Source of the DNA: Actinomycetes bacterium
GTDB lineage: Bacteria; Actinomycetota; Actinomycetes; Actinomycetales; Microbacteriaceae
Assembly: GCA_021779075.1 (NCBI GenBank)
Contig: JAJYBG010000002.1
Location: 1 to 61,855, forward strand
DNA length: 61,855 bases
Direction of reading: 5' to 3'
Within the stretch, counting starts at the first letter, position 1; every line of letters starts with the position of its first letter. The translations under genes and the position numbers were made by a program. This document shows, in pieces, positions 7,963-40,582 of the stretch. Below the pieces are notes generated by a model. The model was not told where the DNA came from. It saw only the letters and a list, made by a program, of their open reading frames with translations, and searched no databases.

Positions 7963-8168
7963 GACGGTAGTTCTCCTCACCGGCAGGCACGTGCCGGACG
8001 ATCCGCAGTGAGTGGGAGTTGTGCGGCCCCGGGGCTGGTGCCATGCTAGGGCATCAGGTCGCGCGCCGATCCGGCGTCCCGTTCGGGGGATTGCCAGGAG
8101 CGCCGACCTAGGATCGAAAGGCTCTACCCCCGGCGCCCGCCCCCGCGCCGCCCTTCGAAAGCGACTTT

Positions 8169-32723: not shown

Positions 32724-32786
32724 TTTCGTAGGCTGGGAGGGCACGCGCGCCGCACGCGCCTGCGCAAGCCCACTGGAGCCGCTGAA

Positions 32787-33476
32787 GTGACCGATCTCGT
32801 CGACACGACGGAGATGTACCTGCGCACGATCCTCGACCTCGAGGAGGAGGACATCGTGCCGTTGCGCGCGCGCATCTCCGAGCGGCTCGGGCACTCCGGC
32901 CCCACCGTGTCGCAGACGATCGCACGCATGGAGCGCGATGGCCTGGTCCGCGTCTCAGGCGACCGCCACCTCGAGCTCACCGAGGCGGGCCGCCGCCGCG
33001 CGATCGACGTCATGCGCAAGCATCGCCTCGCCGAGCGGCTGCTCAGCGACGTCATCGGCCTCGAGTGGGAGTTCCTCCACGACGAGGCCTGCCGCTGGGA
33101 GCACGTCATGAGCGACCTCGTCGAGGAGCGCATCGTGGCGCTGCTCGGCAACCCGACCGAGTCGCCCTACGGCACGCCGATCCCGAGTCTCGACGACGCC
33201 GGTTCCGCTCTGTCGACGACGTTCCTCGACGGGGTGCGCCGCGCGACGGATGCCATCGCCGGAGCCCCGGGCCCGGTGACGAGCACCATCCGCCGTCTCA
33301 GCGAGCCGGTGCAGTTCGAGCCGGAGCTGCTCGCGACGCTGCGTGCCGGGGGCATCCTGCCGGGCAACACGGTGACGCTCGCCCGCGTCGGCGGCCGGGT
33401 CGCGGCGGCGGTCGACGGCTACCCCCCGATCGATCTCGACTTCGAGACCGCAAGCCACATCTTCATCGCGGCGTAA
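32787..33476 (+). CDS. Metal-dependent transcriptional repressor, DtxR/IdeR family
   Basis: 229 aa from a GTG with a GGAG box before it. Winged-helix DNA-binding domain (1-75, recognition helix SGPTVSQTIARM), dimerisation domain with metal ligands (KHRLAERLL; ACRWEH, where Cys, Glu and His are the primary-site residues) and a C-terminal SH3-like domain (about 150-229). The complete three-domain form and the Cys favour the iron-sensing DtxR/IdeR branch over the manganese-sensing MntR. It represses iron uptake when Fe2+ is bound. Confidence 0.92.
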   Translation: MTDLVDTTEMYLRTILDLEEEDIVPLRARISERLGHSGPTVSQTIARMERDGLVRVSGDRHLELTEAGRRRAIDVMRKHRLAERLLSDVIGLEWEFLHDEACRWEHVMSDLVEERIVALLGNPTESPYGTPIPSLDDAGSALSTTFLDGVRRATDAIAGAPGPVTSTIRRLSEPVQFEPELLATLRAGGILPGNTVTLARVGGRVAAAVDGYPPIDLDFETASHIFIAA

Positions 33477-33615: not shown

Positions 33616-34515
33616 TTGGCGATTCTCGAAACATCTCTCGATCTCAACTCAATAGGCCACCCCGCGGTGAAGGGGGTCGCGTCCCCCTCCACCCGCCGCG
33701 AGGCCAAGTCGGCGGCTCTCGCCCACGAGGCCGCCGACCGCCGCCGCTCGATCGCGGTGCACCAGCTGGCGACGATCCGCGCGAAAGCCGTCAAGCGCTT
33801 CGCGGCCGCCGAGGCGAAGGCGGCGAAGTCCGTGGCGGTCCGCCGCAGCGGGAAGCCCGTCATCAAGGCGCTCGCCGTCGTCTTCGCGGTCGGCGTCGTC
33901 GCCACCGCTGCGCTGCCGGCATACGCGCTGGCCCCGAGCGCCACCACGACCGAGGTCGTCCGGCAGGCTCAAGGCGTGCAGAGCGTGACCGTTGCCGGCA
34001 ACGTCGCCGCCGCCAAGACCGTGCACGACGGATTCACCTCGCAGACCCAGACGCAGCTTCTCACCGCCGCCGCCCAGGCCGCTGCGGCGAGCCTGGCGAG
34101 CTACCGGGCCGCCTATTCGGGCCCGTCGTACGTGCAGGCCCTCGCCAACCCGCCGCAGCCGAACTTCTCGCTCGCGGCCGTGTTCGCCACCGCGCAGAGG
34201 TACCGCGGCGTGCCCTACGTCTACGGCGGCGACACCCCGGCCGGCTTCGACTGCTCAGGCTTCGTGCGCTGGGTGTACGGCCAGTTCGGCATCAGCCTGC
34301 CTCACTCGGTCTCGGCGCAAGGCTGGATCGGCACCCGCATCTCGGCGGCCGATGCGCAGCCCGGCGATGTCATCGTGCTCTCCGACGGCTCGCACGACGG
34401 TTTCTACGCCGGCCCGGGCATGATCCTCGACGCGCCGGAGCGCGGCAAGGCCGTGCAGAGCCGCCCGATCTGGACGTCGAGCTACTACATCGTGCGGTTC
34501 GGGATCAAGCACTGA
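33616..34515 (+). CDS. Secreted peptidoglycan hydrolase, NlpC/P60 family
   Basis: 299 aa, TTG start with an AGGT box before it. A long basic N-terminus (about 75 residues) precedes the membrane/signal segment (KALAVVFAVGVVATAALPAYA, about 76-96). A linker follows, then the NlpC/P60 domain (about 180-299) with catalytic Cys213 in FDCSGFVRW and His260 in GSHDGFYAG. Such enzymes cut the D-Glu/diamino-acid peptide bond and act in daughter-cell separation. No separate wall-binding domain is visible. Confidence 0.92.
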   Translation: MAILETSLDLNSIGHPAVKGVASPSTRREAKSAALAHEAADRRRSIAVHQLATIRAKAVKRFAAAEAKAAKSVAVRRSGKPVIKALAVVFAVGVVATAALPAYALAPSATTTEVVRQAQGVQSVTVAGNVAAAKTVHDGFTSQTQTQLLTAAAQAAAASLASYRAAYSGPSYVQALANPPQPNFSLAAVFATAQRYRGVPYVYGGDTPAGFDCSGFVRWVYGQFGISLPHSVSAQGWIGTRISAADAQPGDVIVLSDGSHDGFYAGPGMILDAPERGKAVQSRPIWTSSYYIVRFGIKH

Positions 34516-34572
34516 CGCCGCGGTGAGCGACACGGCGTGGGGCAATCCGGGTCGTTTCGCATTTTTCGGGGT

Positions 34573-34578
34573 TACCCT
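34573..34578 (+). promoter_or_regulatory. -10 box of leaderless His-rich leader peptide
   Basis: TACCCT is followed by 6 bases and the GTG at 34585. Confidence 0.55.
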
Positions 34579-34584
34579 CCTGTT

Positions 34585-34680
34585 GTGATGCACCGCTACC
34601 ACCATCACCACCACCGGCACTCCTGCCAGGTGGCAGTCTCCTTCGGCGTCGTCCTCGTGACGGCGCCGTTTGCGTCTTAA
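34585..34680 (+). CDS. His-rich leader peptide upstream of HNH endonuclease gene
   Basis: 31 aa, GTG then ATG as the first two codons. Residues 2-12 read MHRYHHHHHRH: seven His codons within ten, including a run of five. A Cys follows, then a hydrophobic end (VAVSFGVVLVTAPFAS). The TAA is 11 bases before the HNH gene. A hairpin overlaps the last His codons (34611-34633), and a terminator-like hairpin lies in its 3' half. This is the layout of an attenuation leader sensing charged tRNA-His, but the downstream gene is not a histidine gene. Metal sensing through the His/Cys peptide is an alternative. Confidence 0.65.
   Translation: MMHRYHHHHHRHSCQVAVSFGVVLVTAPFAS
34611..34633 (+). promoter_or_regulatory. 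Hairpin overlapping the His codons of the leader
   Basis: CCACC-GGCA pairs with TGCC-GGTGG with one bulged A and a 4-base loop. A ribosome stalled on the His codons would open it. Confidence 0.55.
34645..34678 (+). terminator. Terminator-like hairpin inside the leader, candidate attenuator
   Basis: GGCGTCGTC pairs with GACGGCGCC (one G-U) around CTCGT, and is followed by GTTTGCGTCTT. It lies 14 bases before the HNH gene. Confidence 0.6.
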
Positions 34681-34691
34681 AAGGGGCCTCC

Positions 34692-35192
34692 ATGCGCACT
34701 CTCGTTCTGAACGCCGGTTACGAACCGCTCGCGGTCGTGTCGTTCAAGAGGGCCCTCGCGCTCGTCATGAACAACAAGGCGACGGTGGTGCAGGTGGATG
34801 CCGAGCATCCGGTGTTCGGCGTCGCCGACGTGTGGGACCGCCCCTCCGTCATCCTGCTCACGCGCTACGTGCGCCTGCCGCACGGCCGCAACGTGCCCGT
34901 GTCGCGCCGCGGGGTGCTGCGCCGGGACGCCCACCGCTGCGCCTACTGCGCGAAGCCGGCGAGCACGATCGACCACGTGCTGCCGCGCTCGAAGGGCGGG
35001 CAGGACTCGTGGGAGAACCTCGTCGCCTGCTGCCTGCGCTGCAACAACGTCAAGGGCGACCGGATGCTGCACGAGCTCGGCTGGCACCTGCGTTTCACCC
35101 CGCGGATGCCCCATGAGCCGACCTGGCTGGTCCGCGGCGCCTCGGAGCACCTGCAGCCCGAGTGGGAGGACTACTTCGCCGAGGCGGCGTAG
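34692..35192 (+). CDS. HNH endonuclease
   Basis: 166 aa, an actinobacterial single-domain HNH protein. An AAAAGGGG stretch precedes the ATG. The N-terminal half opens RTLVLNAGYEPLAVVSFKRAL. The HNH core has IDHVLPRSKGG (His of the first strand), NLVACCLRCNNVKGD and two CxxC zinc pairs (CAYC, CLRC). Nuclease activity is expected; the biological target of this family is not known to me. It is the last chromosomal gene before the island. Confidence 0.9.
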   Translation: MRTLVLNAGYEPLAVVSFKRALALVMNNKATVVQVDAEHPVFGVADVWDRPSVILLTRYVRLPHGRNVPVSRRGVLRRDAHRCAYCAKPASTIDHVLPRSKGGQDSWENLVACCLRCNNVKGDRMLHELGWHLRFTPRMPHEPTWLVRGASEHLQPEWEDYFAEAA

Positions 35193-35199
35193 CCCCGGC

Positions 35200-35440
35200 G
35201 TCCCTTCGCCCTGATGAGGCCTCGGAGCTTGAGGGACGAGCAACTCCGTCCTGAAGGAACGCACCCCTGCTCATCGGGTGAGGCCAGATCCGCAGCCTTC
35301 GCGCTGCCGGCATCGACGAACCACGCCGACCCGTAACCGGGTGACACCTCGACCATCTCCGAGGCAGCAGATCCGCTACATCCCCAACGAATCAACTCGA
35401 AGTATCGCTGCTTCACCGGCCCTTCACGGCGTACCCGTGC
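35200..35440 (-). pseudogene. Transposase remnant (IS30-like N-terminal part)
   Basis: Reading the minus strand gives VKQRYFELIRWGCSGSAAS, then EMVEVSPGYGSAWFVDAGS. This is the helix-turn-helix start typical of long actinobacterial IS30-type transposases. The frame then runs out of similarity and stops near the HNH gene; no catalytic DDE part is left. It marks the left edge of the catabolic island. Confidence 0.6.
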
Positions 35441-35591
35441 TGGAACCCCACCTCGACGCGCGCCTGATCACCGCATTCCGGGCAAGTTTGGTCTGCGGGA
35501 CCAAGATCCGAGCATTGCCGGCATGCAATGATGCTTGCGCGCAGCGGACGCCATGGTCCACATCGGCGCGTTGGTTATCAAGGAGGATAAG

Positions 35592-36581
35592 TTGGCGCAG
35601 CGGTATACGGCTCGGGACTTGGTCGGCGTTCTGGGAATCGTGCCGACACCCGCAACACCTGACGCCGGGCGCTGGGACGCGAGCAGCACGGTCAATGTGG
35701 ACGTGACCACCTCGATGATTCGCGCAGTGGCTCCGGTCGTCGACGCCATCATCACGCTCGGTACGTTTGGCGAAGGCGCGACCCTCACTGAGGACGAAGT
35801 CGTCACTTTCATGAAGACCGTCGTGTCCGAGAGCGGCACGACGCCGACGTTCGCCGGCGCAACCACACTGAACACCCGAGACACGATCCGCCGCGCCCGC
35901 ATGCTCCTGGACATCGGAGTCGACGGCTTGTTCCTCGGACGACCGATGTGGTGCGAGATGGACGATGACTCGATCGTTCGCTTCTATTCCGATATCGCGG
36001 ACGCTCTGCCGGACGTCCCCGTCATCTTGTACGACAACCCCGCGGCATTCAAGGGAAAGATCTCTTCGGAGTTGTACGCGAGGCTTGCGGCGATCCCCAC
36101 GCTCATCGGCGCGAAGTACACATCTCTTGGCAGCCAGTACGCGGATGATGTCCAGGCCTGCGGCGACGAGATCCGACTGCTTCCCATGGATGCCGACTGG
36201 CTGGATGCTCGTCGAGCGGCCGGTCAACATGTCGCTGCTTGCTGGACCCCCAGCGCCGCATGCGGTACCGAGCCGCTTGAGCGGTTGCGCGAGGCGATGG
36301 CCTCTTCCGATTGGGACGCCGCTGACGCGATCAGCCGGGACCTCAAGCGGGCCTACTCGACGCTCATGCCGGATGGCGACTTCTCGCAGTTCTCCAAATA
36401 CAACATCCCCCTCGACAAGGCGCGGATCGCCGCGGCTGGTGTCACCGATCCCGGCCCGGCCCGGCCGCCGTACCAAACGGCTCCCCAGGCGTATCTCGAC
36501 GGCGCGATCGAGACGGGACGCCGGTGGGCCGAGTTGCAGCGTAGCTACACGACCCGCGCTAAGGCCAGTTCCGCCAGCTAG
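35592..36581 (+). CDS. Hydratase-aldolase of the NahE/PhdJ type (dihydrodipicolinate synthase superfamily)
   Basis: 329 aa. The TTG at 35592 is preceded by a perfect AGGAGG, better than any upstream start. (beta/alpha)8 barrel. GVLGIVPTPATPD, TFGEGATLT, GATTLNTRDTIRRAR and GLFLGRPMW match trans-o-hydroxybenzylidenepyruvate and 2'-carboxybenzalpyruvate hydratase-aldolases of naphthalene and phenanthrene breakdown. The Schiff-base Lys is in IGAKYTS and the catalytic Tyr in ILYDNP. It would cleave an aryl-butenoate to an aldehyde and pyruvate. No ring dioxygenase is present in the island, so the true substrate is open. Base composition is lower in GC than the flanks. Confidence 0.88.
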   Translation: MAQRYTARDLVGVLGIVPTPATPDAGRWDASSTVNVDVTTSMIRAVAPVVDAIITLGTFGEGATLTEDEVVTFMKTVVSESGTTPTFAGATTLNTRDTIRRARMLLDIGVDGLFLGRPMWCEMDDDSIVRFYSDIADALPDVPVILYDNPAAFKGKISSELYARLAAIPTLIGAKYTSLGSQYADDVQACGDEIRLLPMDADWLDARRAAGQHVAACWTPSAACGTEPLERLREAMASSDWDAADAISRDLKRAYSTLMPDGDFSQFSKYNIPLDKARIAAAGVTDPGPARPPYQTAPQAYLDGAIETGRRWAELQRSYTTRAKASSAS

Positions 36582-36695
36582 CGCTGCTCCGTCGTGCGTG
36601 GCCGTGCGACTTCACGTTGCCTAGGCACAAATTCTCTCAGAACAGGCCGATACGAGCCGGGCGACGAAGCCCGCGCCGTCAGAAAGGAAGCTCCT

Positions 36696-38024
36696 ATGTC
36701 CACCAATGAGTCGGTTCTGACCCTGTCGGAACCAACTGTTCCGCGGATGACGCCGCGCACTGTCGCCGCTACGGCGGTTGGCACCGCTATGGAGATGTAC
36801 GACTTCGTTCTGTATGGGACCGCGGCCGCCCTGGTATTCGGCCCGTTGTTCTTTCCGCAGGTGGACCCCGTCGTCGGCACGTTGGCATCGTTGGCGACCT
36901 TCGGCGTGGGTTTCGTCGCCCGGCCGCTCGGAGGTGTGATTTTCGGCAACCTCGGCGATCGAATCGGTCGAAAGCGGGTGCTGATCATCACGATGGCCGC
37001 GATGGGCGTCTTCTCCACTGTCATCGGACTGCTGCCGACCTATCAGACGATCGGTATCTGGGCTCCGATCCTTCTGGTCGCCCTGCGCCTCGTTCAGGGA
37101 ATTGCAATGGGCGGCGAGCAAGGCGGGGCTTTCGTCATGGCAGCAGAGTCCGGTGGCAAAGGGTCCGCGCGACGCGGGTTCTTGGGCGCATGGCCGGCGG
37201 TGGGCATGGCCGGCGGACTCGTTCTCGCGACTCTCATCTTCGGCGCGTTCGCGGGAGCGCTCAACAAGGATGCGTTCATCGCTTGGGGCTGGCGGGTGCC
37301 GTTCCTGATCAGCCTGGTGTTGGTCGGAATCGGTTTGGCAGTGCGATTGGGCGTGCCCGAGACCAGCGTGTTCGAGGACGTCAAGAGCCAGAACCGCACC
37401 GCGCGAGCTCCGATGGTCGAGGTCATTCGAAGCCATTGGCGAGGGATTCTGCTGGTGATCGGGATGAAGTCGGGCGAGACCGCGGCGTTCTTCCTCCTCG
37501 CAACGTTCTCAGTTACCTATGGGAGTCAATTCCTAGGCATGGAGCGCGCCGGTATTCTGAACGCCGTTCTTGTTGCCGCCGTCGTGGAGATGGTCACGGC
37601 TCCACTCTGGGGCGCGCTGTCCGACCGAATCGGACGCCGTCCGGTGATGATCTTCGGGGCAGCGTTCCTACTGGTGTTCGCCGCCCCGTTCTTCCTCCTG
37701 ATGAACACGACGTCCCTGCCTCTGGTCTACTTGGCTCTGATCCTTGCGATGGGGTTGGGTCACGCACCCCTCGCCTCTCCGTCGGGCGCGTTCTTCGCGG
37801 AGCTCTTCCCGACACGCGTAAGGCTCAGCGGGGTCTCCCTAGGGGTTCAGCTCACGGCGATGCTCGCGGGAGGCTTCACGCCGCTGATCGCCACCGCACT
37901 TCTCGCCGGGACCCACAGCATCTGGTCGGTTGCCATCTACATCGCGGCACTCGCGCTGCTCTCCTTGATCGCCACACTCGTTACACGAGAGACTTTCAGG
38001 TCCAGCGAGTTGCCCGTCGATTGA
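36696..38024 (+). CDS. MFS transporter, metabolite:H+ symporter type
   Basis: 442 aa, 12 predicted membrane helices. AGAAAGGAAG precedes the ATG. GLGDRIGRKRVL follows helix 2 and ALSDRIGRRPVM is its repeat in the second half; RLVQGIAMGGEQGG is the signature of the MHS family (shikimate, dicarboxylate and aromatic acid symporters). Its place between the aldolase and cupin genes suggests import of the aromatic or carboxylic substrate of the island. Confidence 0.9.
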   Translation: MSTNESVLTLSEPTVPRMTPRTVAATAVGTAMEMYDFVLYGTAAALVFGPLFFPQVDPVVGTLASLATFGVGFVARPLGGVIFGNLGDRIGRKRVLIITMAAMGVFSTVIGLLPTYQTIGIWAPILLVALRLVQGIAMGGEQGGAFVMAAESGGKGSARRGFLGAWPAVGMAGGLVLATLIFGAFAGALNKDAFIAWGWRVPFLISLVLVGIGLAVRLGVPETSVFEDVKSQNRTARAPMVEVIRSHWRGILLVIGMKSGETAAFFLLATFSVTYGSQFLGMERAGILNAVLVAAVVEMVTAPLWGALSDRIGRRPVMIFGAAFLLVFAAPFFLLMNTTSLPLVYLALILAMGLGHAPLASPSGAFFAELFPTRVRLSGVSLGVQLTAMLAGGFTPLIATALLAGTHSIWSVAIYIAALALLSLIATLVTRETFRSSELPVD

Positions 38025-38067
38025 CTCGAGCAAGTTTGTACAGTCCTAACGAACGAGGAGAGGGTTG

Positions 38068-38577
38068 ATGGATAACACGAACGGAAAACTGAGCGAAGAG
38101 GGACTGCAGGAATTCATGCAGGAACTGAACCGCATGCACAATCGAGACGACCAGCATGTCATCGAGCCGAATCTCGTCACCCACTCGGAGGATGCGTACT
38201 GGCTGAAAGGGACGACCGACAACCCATCCCATCTCGGCCTGCTCCGTCATCTGCCCATGAAGACGGTTGAGTTCATCCTTCAGATGATTCCCGCAGACAC
38301 TGCGACAGACCTGCAGCGTCATGTCCACGAGTCGATCCACTATGTCGCTGACGGAAGCGGATGGTCGGAGATCGGAGACCAGATCGTCAAGTGGAAAACG
38401 GGCGATTTCGTCTTCACTCCGCCGTGGATCTGGCACCGGCACTACGCTGATTCGCAGGACGTGCACATGATCATCATCGAAAACTCTCGGATGTTGAACT
38501 CCCTTGATGCGGACCTCCGCGAAAGCCGCGGCAGTATCAGCTTCGCGGACGCGTTCGGAGCCCAAGAAGATAGGTGA
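38068..38577 (+). CDS. Cupin-domain protein
   Basis: 169 aa; GAGGAGAGGG precedes the ATG. One cupin barrel: first motif RHVHESIHYVADGSG and second motif GDFVFTPPWIWHRHYAD supply several His for a metal. It looks like half of a gentisate-dioxygenase-like bicupin, but the length and single domain leave it open whether it is a dioxygenase, isomerase or sensor. Its stop overlaps the regulator start by 4 bases, which ties the two in one operon. Confidence 0.82.
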   Translation: MDNTNGKLSEEGLQEFMQELNRMHNRDDQHVIEPNLVTHSEDAYWLKGTTDNPSHLGLLRHLPMKTVEFILQMIPADTATDLQRHVHESIHYVADGSGWSEIGDQIVKWKTGDFVFTPPWIWHRHYADSQDVHMIIIENSRMLNSLDADLRESRGSISFADAFGAQEDR

Positions 38578-39959
38578 GTGAGACCGTGGATGGCGGTCAA
38601 GAATACGATCACCGGACGAAGCAGACCAATTGGTTTCCTCCGAATCAGGTTCAGTTGACTACCCCCATTCCGACTGGTGCCCCGCAGCCCTTCGCCTGGG
38701 TCCTGGAACTCACTTCACGGGTCGGTGCACCTAGCGAGTTGCCCGACAACGCGCAGGGAGTTGCGCGTCAGCACCTTGGACCCGGACCTCTGCGATGGGC
38801 TACTCAGAATGCGGTGAGCGTCGCGGATCTGATCGTCAGTACCGATCCCTCTCTCGCGTCGTTGAGCATCGCGGTCCAAGCGACGACGGAAACGCTGTTC
38901 GTGGACACACTCCTCGGACTCGTGGACCCGGGCCTTGGCCGCTTCACACGACCGGTCGTGCTGCAGTTGGCGCAGGAGGCGCTGAACGAAGGCGTGACGC
39001 TGGCCGCGGTATTGCGTGCCCTCAATCAGGCGCAAGCCGGGATCACCGAAGCGCTCCTTCACGAGTGTGAACGGCTTATTGCGCCTGGTGACCAGGGCGC
39101 GATAATGCGGGCGATCGTGACCGAGGTTGTCAGCACCCACAATCAGCTCGCCGACACCATTGTGGACATGCACTCGGCTGCGGACGACCCCGTGCGGTTC
39201 CTCGACGAAACCGAGTCGGCGGTCCTCGCAGCCCTCCTGAACGGACGTGTGCGACCGGAACGGTTCGAGCAGGTCACCCGATATCCACTCGACCGCATTC
39301 ATGTAGCGGCCGTCGCATTCAGCAAGCGGCGAGAGCCTCAGAAGCTCGTGACGACGACCGTGCAGGCTCTGGAGAGTATGGGATGCGATCAGATCTTCAA
39401 AGTGATGATCGCACCGAACGTCCTCTGGGCGTGGGGCAGTGTCCGCACTGCTGACGATCTCCACTTGGAGCCGCCGACTCAGTGCAACGGATGGACGCTG
39501 GCCGTCGGCCTCCCTGGTAGGGGAGCCGCCGGGTTTATCGCCAGCCATGACGAGGCGAGAGCTATGCAACGAGTCGCCACGATGGCAGGGTGGCGGAACC
39601 TCGGGCGAATCCTGTCCTACGACCAATATGGGGCTGTTGCAGAACTCGCCGCCCGGCCCGAGCGGCTGCGGAGATTCCTGGAGGTTCAGCTCGGCGGTCT
39701 TCTCGGTGCCGGTGGTCGCGAGACCGATCTGCGCAGCACGATGCTGGAGTACCTGAATGTCAATCGCAGCCAATACGCAGCTGCACGTCGGCTTCACGTC
39801 TCGAAGAACACCGTGAGTTACCGGCTCCGGCGTGCCGAAGAGATCCTCGGCCGAGACCTTGGCACGGACCTCAGCCCACTCCATACCGCACTGCTTGCGA
39901 CGGACATCCTCGGTGCGAGCGGTATCGCGGAGATGGACATGCCACAGGCGGGTAAGTAG
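38574..39959 (+). CDS. PucR/CdaR-family transcriptional regulator
   Basis: 461 aa. An N-terminal sensing region (about 60-220) is followed by a degenerate GGDEF-like middle domain and the C-terminal PucR helix-turn-helix at about 395-440: YLNVNRSQYAAARRLHVSK then NTVSYRLRRAEEILG. Members of this family usually activate catabolic operons in response to a pathway compound. As the last gene of the island operon it is likely its own regulator. GC is lower than in flanking genes. Confidence 0.87.
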   Translation: MSETVDGGQEYDHRTKQTNWFPPNQVQLTTPIPTGAPQPFAWVLELTSRVGAPSELPDNAQGVARQHLGPGPLRWATQNAVSVADLIVSTDPSLASLSIAVQATTETLFVDTLLGLVDPGLGRFTRPVVLQLAQEALNEGVTLAAVLRALNQAQAGITEALLHECERLIAPGDQGAIMRAIVTEVVSTHNQLADTIVDMHSAADDPVRFLDETESAVLAALLNGRVRPERFEQVTRYPLDRIHVAAVAFSKRREPQKLVTTTVQALESMGCDQIFKVMIAPNVLWAWGSVRTADDLHLEPPTQCNGWTLAVGLPGRGAAGFIASHDEARAMQRVATMAGWRNLGRILSYDQYGAVAELAARPERLRRFLEVQLGGLLGAGGRETDLRSTMLEYLNVNRSQYAAARRLHVSKNTVSYRLRRAEEILGRDLGTDLSPLHTALLATDILGASGIAEMDMPQAGK

Positions 39960-40012
39960 TCACGCCCCGATCGTGAATACGGCGTGACCGGAGTTCTCAG
40001 CACTTCGAGTGG

Positions 40013-40195
40013 GCGCTGTTCGCGACCGCGCCGGACTGGGTCGCCTGGCCCACCGACGCGCACCGGCAAGTGGGCCTGCCCCGTGAACTCGCCCGGCCCC
40101 GACGTTACGGGTTGATGCTCGTCGACGAGTTCGGCTATCTCTCGTTCGAGCACGACGTCGCGAACCCGTTCTTCCCACTCATCTCGTCCCGCTGA
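40013..40195 (+). pseudogene. IS21-family IstB ATPase fragment
   Basis: 61 codons, no start. ALFATAPDWVA, PRELARPRRYGLMLVDEFGYL and ANPFFPLISSR match the middle of IstB (Walker B LMLVDEFGYL). Walker A and both termini are gone. It marks the right edge of the catabolic island. Confidence 0.75.
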
Positions 40196-40510
40196 GCGTG
40201 CGCCTCCGTGATCCTCTTGCCCTCAACGGTGCGGGCCGGCTACCGGCTTTGAGGAGAGGCATCGGCAGCCTCCCGGCACTCGAACCATCACCGACGAACC
40301 CGCCGGCTGAACGGCCTGGCGACCGTTCACTTTTTGGCGCGCCGGAACCGTTCAGTCTTCGAGCGTCGCCGGCCGAGACGAGCCCGATCGAGGGCTCGGC
40401 TGTGCGTGCCCCGGCGCGGAAGGATGCACCGATGCTGTTCGGAGTGGCTGCGGGAGCGGAGTCGGCTCGAGAGCGGCTGGGCCCGCCCGGTACGATGGAC
40501 CGTCCGCCAC
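40196..40510. other. Gene-free stretch between IS21 remnant and tRNA-Arg
   Basis: 315 bases without a convincing gene. It holds GACCGTTCACTTTTTGG at 40320-40336, which may be what is left of the IS21 end, and a possible -10 box TACGAT at 40491-40496 for the tRNA. Confidence 0.45.
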
Positions 40511-40582
40511 GCCTCCGTAGCTCAATGGAAGAGCAAGCGCGTCCTAAGCGTTAGGTTGCAGGTTCGAGTCCTGTCGGGGGCA
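40511..40582 (+). tRNA. tRNA-Arg (anticodon CCT)
   Basis: 72 bases with a full cloverleaf: acceptor GCCTCCG with CGGGGGC, anticodon loop GTCCTAA giving CCT, and T-arm GCAGG-TTCGAGT-CCTGT. The discriminator is A; CCA is not encoded. It reads AGG. It borders the island, and tRNA genes are usual insertion sites, but I find no copy of its 3' end at the left boundary. Confidence 0.93.

Follow-up and report, generated by a model that had tools for sequence, protein, structure and literature searches.

A translated leader with a terminator-type hairpin ahead of an HNH-domain gene in Microbacteriaceae and its relatives

Leader attenuators of the his and trp type combine a leader peptide carrying a control-codon-like run with a hairpin and a terminator. 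In pyrBI-type attenuators, UTP-sensitive pausing takes place in a U-rich leader. In the pyrBI (pyrL) attenuator of Escherichia coli, as far as the accessible descriptions go, the terminator lies inside the translated leader and is prevented by a ribosome that follows close behind the polymerase. The accessible parts of three further reports describe the ilvB1 leader, which has the components of the his and trp leaders (PMC13236596), the whiB7/wblC leader of Actinobacteria, which has a leader frame and a terminator together with an antiterminator that forms on disrupted leader translation (PMC11550727), and the leaderless Cys-rich leaders of mycobacteria, in which a short frame before another gene begins with an RTG at the transcript start and this RTG suffices for translation (PMC4633059).

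The leader analysed here precedes a gene for an HNH-domain protein and resembles each of these systems in part. It shares with pyrBI a terminator within reach of the leader ribosome, but the gene, the peptide and the promoter are different, and it has selected AUA or His codons and the helices P0 and P1. A peptide rich in one amino acid, a hairpin and a terminator are shared with the his, trp and ilvB1 leaders, whereas no antiterminator was found and the gene is not one of biosynthesis or transport of the cognate amino acid; the antiterminator likewise separates the whiB7/wblC leader from it. Compared with the mycobacterial leaders, it has His or AUA codons instead of Cys, an intrinsic terminator and an HNH gene. 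As far as the literature searched shows, the element is undescribed: no account of this HNH gene's leader was found in a search whose scope excluded most subscription papers, which leaves absence unproven.

The leader and the HNH gene in the window

The window is the whole stretch of DNA analysed, positions 1 to 61,855 of the forward strand of contig JAJYBG010000002.1 (assembly GCA_021779075.1; Actinomycetes bacterium, Microbacteriaceae); features are on the plus strand unless stated otherwise. A −10 element, TACCCT (34573–34578), is separated by the six bases CCTGTT from a GTG (34585–34587), which is followed by an ATG at 34588. The GTG is the leaderless-type start of a reading frame of 31 codons plus TAA (34585–34680, stop codon at 34678–34680) that translates as VMHRYHHHHHRHSCQVAVSFGVVLVTAPFAS. 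Seven His codons are found in a block of ten (34591–34620), five of them consecutive (34600–34614). An earlier, sequence-only reading of this DNA had described both a −10 box placed for a leaderless transcript in front of an HNH gene and the His-rich frame of 31 codons, and both are present as described. Immediately 3′ of the leader stop is the Shine–Dalgarno-like AAGGGG of the HNH gene (34681–34686), the ATG of which (34692) lies 11 nt beyond the stop codon. A two-hexamer consensus promoter scan reported no promoter and no −35 element at the window leader. Genes for an iron-dependent-repressor-type regulator (32766–33473) and an NlpC/P60 protein (33616–34515) lie upstream of it.

RNA folding of 34585–34670 gave the P1 hairpin, of 9 bp with one bulge (34611–34633), and a 10-bp hairpin, with a z of −4.3 against 200 dinucleotide shuffles, none of which folded as well; for 34585–34691 the z was −3.0, again with no shuffle as good. 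P1, which has a covarying counterpart in relatives, corresponds to the hairpin that had been proposed over the last His codons. A possible start-codon hairpin, GUGAUG/CAUCAC (34585–34608), was seen in the RNA fold of the window leader. The intrinsic-terminator-type element (34644–34680) was recognized by RNA fold, covariation and covariance model. Its hairpin, CGGCGTCGTC-CTCGT-GACGGCGCCG (34644–34668), has a perfect 10-bp GC stem, and its T tail, TTTGCGTC, is weak, with four T in eight bases. The GC-rich terminator-like hairpin claimed from the letters is there; a stricter terminator scan that demanded five T in eight reported no terminator at the window leader. The leader observation in the window is not an artefact.

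The HNH gene (34692–35192) encodes a protein of 166 residues with a PLMP-like N-terminal part and an HNH domain; PF14279 and PF01844 are above cut-off and there is no room for RuvC. The gene is of nuclease type and not one of His biosynthesis, as had been read from its translation. The predicted structure has a mean pLDDT of 85.7. In a fold search, predicted residues 61–147 matched the HNH domains of IscB and Cas9, and about 50 residues, in alignments from residue 1, superposed on IscB/IsrB chains with r.m.s.d. 1.6–2.2 and Z 5.4–7.8, values under 8 being such as a common arrangement can give; the superposition on 8ctl_D spans residues 1–63. The sequence-profile match of the N-terminal part to PLMP was not significant. 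Membership of IscB was considered and rejected (NF040563, 48 bits against a cut-off of 175). Judged by the predicted structure, the protein appears to resemble PLMP-HNH proteins of the IshB type; PLMP and HNH parts without RuvC form the architecture that we take to be IshB. IshB-like proteins are named, in the accessible part of the source, as a possible origin of the IscB HNH domain (PMC12477157).

About 5.3 kb (35193–40510), within which a DHDPS-like frame lies, separate the window HNH gene from a tRNA-Arg(CCT) at 40511. This tRNA gene was found downstream of HNH in seven of nine loci scanned (L005 and L032 being one locus), in six of them within about 100 nt, and was not seen in the stretch covered for L003 and L004. 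The segment 35193–40510 may have been inserted close to the tRNA. Elsewhere in the window, an msiK RNA (RF01747) is located at 7967–8024 on the minus strand (50.1 bits, above the gathering score).

Occurrence, helices and leader frames in relatives

Of 150 family genomes, 131 had a match to the HNH query at E ≤ 0.001, in a few cases a weak one. The 211 loci collected were reduced by shared 8-mers to 184, namely 126 from the family (metagenome assemblies named by higher rank only are included here), 39 from other Micrococcales and 19 from other orders. A terminator with a score of at least 14 was found within 260 nt upstream of HNH in 122 of the 126 family loci, 19 of the 39 Micrococcales loci and one of the 19 loci from other orders; in controls this score was reached by 1/126 mononucleotide-shuffled family loci and by 6/125 in an upstream control region. 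The remaining 20 of the 39 other Micrococcales loci and 18 of the 19 from other orders lack the terminator or have one that scores too low, which counts against the pyrBI-type reading proposed below.

Covariation was analysed in alignment A1, consisting of 56 leaders of 80 references (frames starting at −115 to −92; L030, L036, L049, L050 and L057 were left out of the 80). It supports three helices: P0, which lies within the beginning of the frame and has 93.5% of its cells paired, P1, with 66% and with some misalignment between clades, and the terminator, with 99.8%. Eighteen of 23 pairs had changed on both sides, cells with two-sided change numbered 124 compared with 50 in shuffles (0/500 shuffles as high), and shifting the pairing partners by 1–3 columns abolished the covariation. 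The sequence-only reading had proposed looking for covariation in both of its hairpins, and it is seen for P1 and for the terminator; leader frame, P1 hairpin and terminator before HNH are common to the relatives. Both upstream regions also fold better than shuffles, with a mean z of −2.1 for P0 (73/86 below −1) and −1.2 for P1 (56/110 below −1).

A covariance model built on A1 matched the window at 34520–34676 with an E of 1.3 × 10−4 within the window and only 20 bits. Run against the window's own genome, it gave one reported match, the window element (E 0.0039). At E ≤ 1, matches were obtained in 98 of 120 family genomes; the genus mate G053 and 21 others of the 120 gave none. The element is specific to HNH by this comparison, 82 of the 85 family hits with E < 10−5 lying within 400 nt upstream of it. 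The idea that other genes share the leader was dropped at this threshold: the three hits away from HNH resemble ordinary gene-end terminators. With Rfam 15 no match at or above the gathering score was obtained for the window leader, and in a permissive Rfam search of ten loci tRNAs alone reached that score. Sequence comparison identifies the window element as a shortened member of the conserved HNH leader, reduced in that it has no P0, a weak T tail, a leaderless-type start and no NGCCR hairpin (described below).

Leader frames were picked by a script that took the best Shine–Dalgarno-like start 25–150 nt before the terminator. Among 141 loci with such a terminator, from the family and from other Micrococcales, 117 had a Shine–Dalgarno start and 23 had none, and the leaderless-type frame of the window was added by hand. 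In the Cryobacterium-type loci L030, L049, L050 and L057 the script chose a frame other than the RTIHTMD-type one. A frame was said to reach the hairpin if its stop lay at most 8 nt ahead of the hairpin. This was so for 117 of the 118 frames (116/117 Shine–Dalgarno-led frames, L186 failing to do so, and that of the window), compared with 139 of 236 when the +1 and +2 frames were read from the same starts, so that the overlap or abutment of frame and terminator expected of the pyrBI type is found in all but one. Relative to the 5′ arm, the stops of the 110 family frames lie at 0 to +3 (37 frames), +15 to +19 (27), beyond +45 (22), before the arm (17, including L186), at +36 to +45 (six) and at +4 to +14 (one).

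TANNNT, exactly six bases and GTG were present in ten of 22 pattern-inspected loci, the window included; one more has five bases, and the 22 are mostly those without a Shine–Dalgarno start. The same six-base gap between TANNNT and GTG also precedes leaders of other families, and TTAnnnT upstream of the leader was also found in the genus mates L003 and L004 and in L005, L006, L008–L010, L033 and L034. In L131, one of the ten, the GTG shares its frame with HNH itself. No NCBIfam or Pfam leader-peptide family matched the window peptide or those of eight relatives above cut-off (SpeFL reached 10.5 bits, short of its cut-off of 25).

The distance from terminator hairpin to HNH, with a median of 87 nt (10–90%: 72–106) over 122 family loci, would suit a leader that forms a small gene of its own, complete with terminator and simply adjacent to an HNH gene with a promoter farther downstream. 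We consider this distinctly improbable. The frames of the window, L112–L114, L120, L133, L134, L138, L139 and L141 end no more than 13 nt from the HNH start or overlap it (in L120 and the five named after it, from 13 nt before to 4 nt into HNH), and the model hits place the element before HNH.

A hairpin with the five-base loop NGCCR stands just before HNH in 93 of the 126 family loci (0.9 expected from shuffles), for example at L011:1439–1503 (+) and L023:1993–2057 (−), and in 4/39 Micrococcales loci and 5/19 from other orders; none was found in the window. Six other loop types were present in 0–4 of the 184 loci compared with 102 for NGCCR. In alignment A2, for which 61 of the 184 loci were hand-picked for diversity, many with a visible hairpin, the stem covariation score was 0.476 against 0.188 for shuffles (0/500 as high), and the count of pairs with two-sided change was not above shuffles (152/500); the count over all 184 loci is the fairer measure. 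That the hairpin extends beyond the class Actinomycetes was considered and rejected: a phylum search gave it in 3/29 loci (L213, L214 and L222), all three of which belong to the class or order. PLMP-like and HNH parts, and in many relatives a conserved hairpin near the HNH Shine–Dalgarno sequence, are features shared with IsrB and IscB and their omega RNA; the HNH protein differs by its lack of RuvC, its RNA binding and any guide RNA are hypothetical, and the window lacks the NGCCR hairpin. According to the accessible part of the report on IsrB, its PLMP domain contacts an omega RNA hairpin that bears its own Shine–Dalgarno sequence, and the authors suggest that the contact plays a role in expression (PMC9581776). 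By analogy with this contact, the NGCCR hairpin is a possible site for the HNH protein itself, and feedback is therefore a reasonable conjecture.

Codon choice and pairing of the terminator arm

The run of at least seven His in ten codons is the one six-frame case in the 61,855 bases of the window. Such runs were found in 11 of the 211 loci (533,835 bases; two are copies of others), all of them 62–137 nt ahead of the HNH start, and five CAY codons in succession occur once in the organism's own 1.78-Mb genome, at the window leader. Conservation of the His run in relatives, which the sequence-only reading had proposed to check, is not general: 14 of the 118 leader frames hold at least four His in ten codons (ten of the 14 are without AUA), 80 hold AUA, and in 28 both AUA and a His-dense stretch are missing. 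On the HNH tree, His-rich leaders fall in two places far apart, the clade of Leifsonia, Humibacter and the window and one other family; with labels assigned by eye (17 labelled of 167 rows), the trait shows at least four label changes.

Cys accompanies His in the leaders of the window, the Humibacter type (HHSHHCFHHHC) and the Leifsonia type, and in the HNH protein two pairs of Cys, all four invariant, would bind zinc. A His/Cys-rich nascent or released peptide might accordingly bind zinc or nickel and alter translation of the leader, an explanation that we regard as very unlikely: 104 of the 118 frames hold fewer than four His in ten codons, and the leaders of L117 and L132 are His-rich with no Cys in the block. 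The CAC tract could instead be an RNA feature, such as a Rho loading site when the leader is untranslated, with His as a by-product. It is C-rich, G-poor and partly unpaired in the fold, and interplay of Rho with translated leaders is known in Actinobacteria. However, both distant clades have their His runs in the leader frame, the codon selected in many of the other relatives, AUA, is not rich in C, and the intrinsic hairpin is present too; we judge this account quite unlikely.

By codon counts, the leaders of many relatives select the rare codon AUA. It accounts for 91 of 178 Ile codons across the 110 family leader frames, compared with 10 of 587 in the HNH genes of the same loci (p about 10−55), and at least one is held by 75 of the 110. 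The 118 frames contain 102 AUA in frame against 14 out of frame, and 43 of the 91 family codons lie 45–53 nt before the terminator. AUU is found 13 times to the 91 of AUA, and the codon contexts of AUA number 58; therefore neither base composition nor a single inherited motif explains the use of AUA. Among other families, in frames required to reach the hairpin, 11 of 17 leader Ile codons are AUA.

Pairing of the terminator 5′ arm with upstream RNA was calculated by equilibrium folding only, with four dinucleotide shuffles per locus, and with 34 nt of upstream RNA was 0.296 compared with 0.483 in the shuffles (n = 110). With 46, 60 and 100 nt the values were 0.427 versus 0.493, 0.453 versus 0.523 and 0.487 versus 0.552, and for the window arm they were 0.28 versus 0.42 (34 nt) and 0.31 versus 0.55 (100 nt). 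An antiterminator was thus sought with four lengths of upstream RNA, and mean pairing fell below the shuffles every time. Since the arm pairs upstream less than shuffles do, there is no sign of a selected antiterminator, and in its absence stalling of the ribosome at His codons would promote termination. That no convincing antiterminator could be found by eye was correct and informative; the form of classical amino-acid attenuation, which had been claimed alongside and which needs one, is not supported by the comparison.

In classical attenuation a ribosome stalled at His (or AUA) would free an antiterminator, and HNH would be on when the charged tRNA is short. The control-codon-like run, the hairpin and the terminator are in the correct order for it, and precedents exist, in the accessible parts of the sources, in ilvB1 of Mycobacterium tuberculosis (PMC13236596) and in whiB7/wblC for antibiotics and starvation (PMC11550727). 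The low pairing of the 5′ arm, in the 110 family loci as in the window, and an HNH gene that makes no amino acid make it unlikely. The pairing values speak against a circuit of the his/trp kind and in favour of a ribosome that covers the arm directly.

Candidate control by leader translation

We consider it somewhat probable, on sequence comparison, that a translation-gated terminator of the pyrBI type controls HNH. RNA polymerase would start at or near the GTG and transcribe a leader frame extending across the terminator hairpin and ending next to the Shine–Dalgarno sequence of HNH. A closely following ribosome would cover the terminator 5′ arm and permit read-through (ON), and it would finish where HNH translation begins, which may deliver it to HNH. 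If leader translation failed, or were slow in the slow-codon stretch, P1 and the terminator would form and HNH would stay untranscribed (OFF). The slow-codon stretch would be the His block in the window and the AUA codons in many relatives, so that the nuclease is probably made solely when ribosomes translate the leader well, whatever physiological signal this may convey.

Our confidence is held at this level because the genus mate G053 has no model match and because the baseline of pyrL counts against a pyrBI-type reading. The reduced form of the window element and the 28 frames that lack both AUA and a dense His stretch weigh against it as well. In the accessible part of the pyrL study, a polyproline stall ahead of the hairpin cut the reporter 26-fold without EF-P and under 2-fold with EF-P, and the hairpin without any stall still cut it about 18-fold, which means that coupling there was rare (PMC5021804). 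For E. coli, the accessible part of another study reports that a terminator a few bp after the stop codon is almost fully repressed and that terminators located in a coding region's first 100 bp are efficient (PMC4824070). The 5′ arm of the window terminator begins 59 nt past the GTG, inside the first 100 bp, and its protection may be poor.

A more far-reaching version, which we offer as rather unlikely in its entirety, is a nuclease checkpoint. A PLMP-HNH (IshB-type) protein would be licensed only while one tRNA keeps leader translation abreast of transcription. In the window's clade and a second one this would be tRNA-His, in many Micrococcales the rare tRNA-Ile that reads AUA, the sensor codon having been exchanged in evolution. 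The protein would in addition bind the NGCCR hairpin beside its own Shine–Dalgarno sequence and so feed back on its message, as the IsrB PLMP domain does with the omega RNA end, which would make the leader a relative of omega RNA without guide function.

The translation-gated model is directly testable, since changing AUA to AUC leaves the peptide unchanged. If it is true, a conserved translation-gated terminator would be linked to just one gene throughout a large group of bacteria. Selection would act on one rare codon, and not on a biosynthetic amino acid, without an antiterminator, and the protein so regulated would be one that resembles the non-RuvC parts of IscB.
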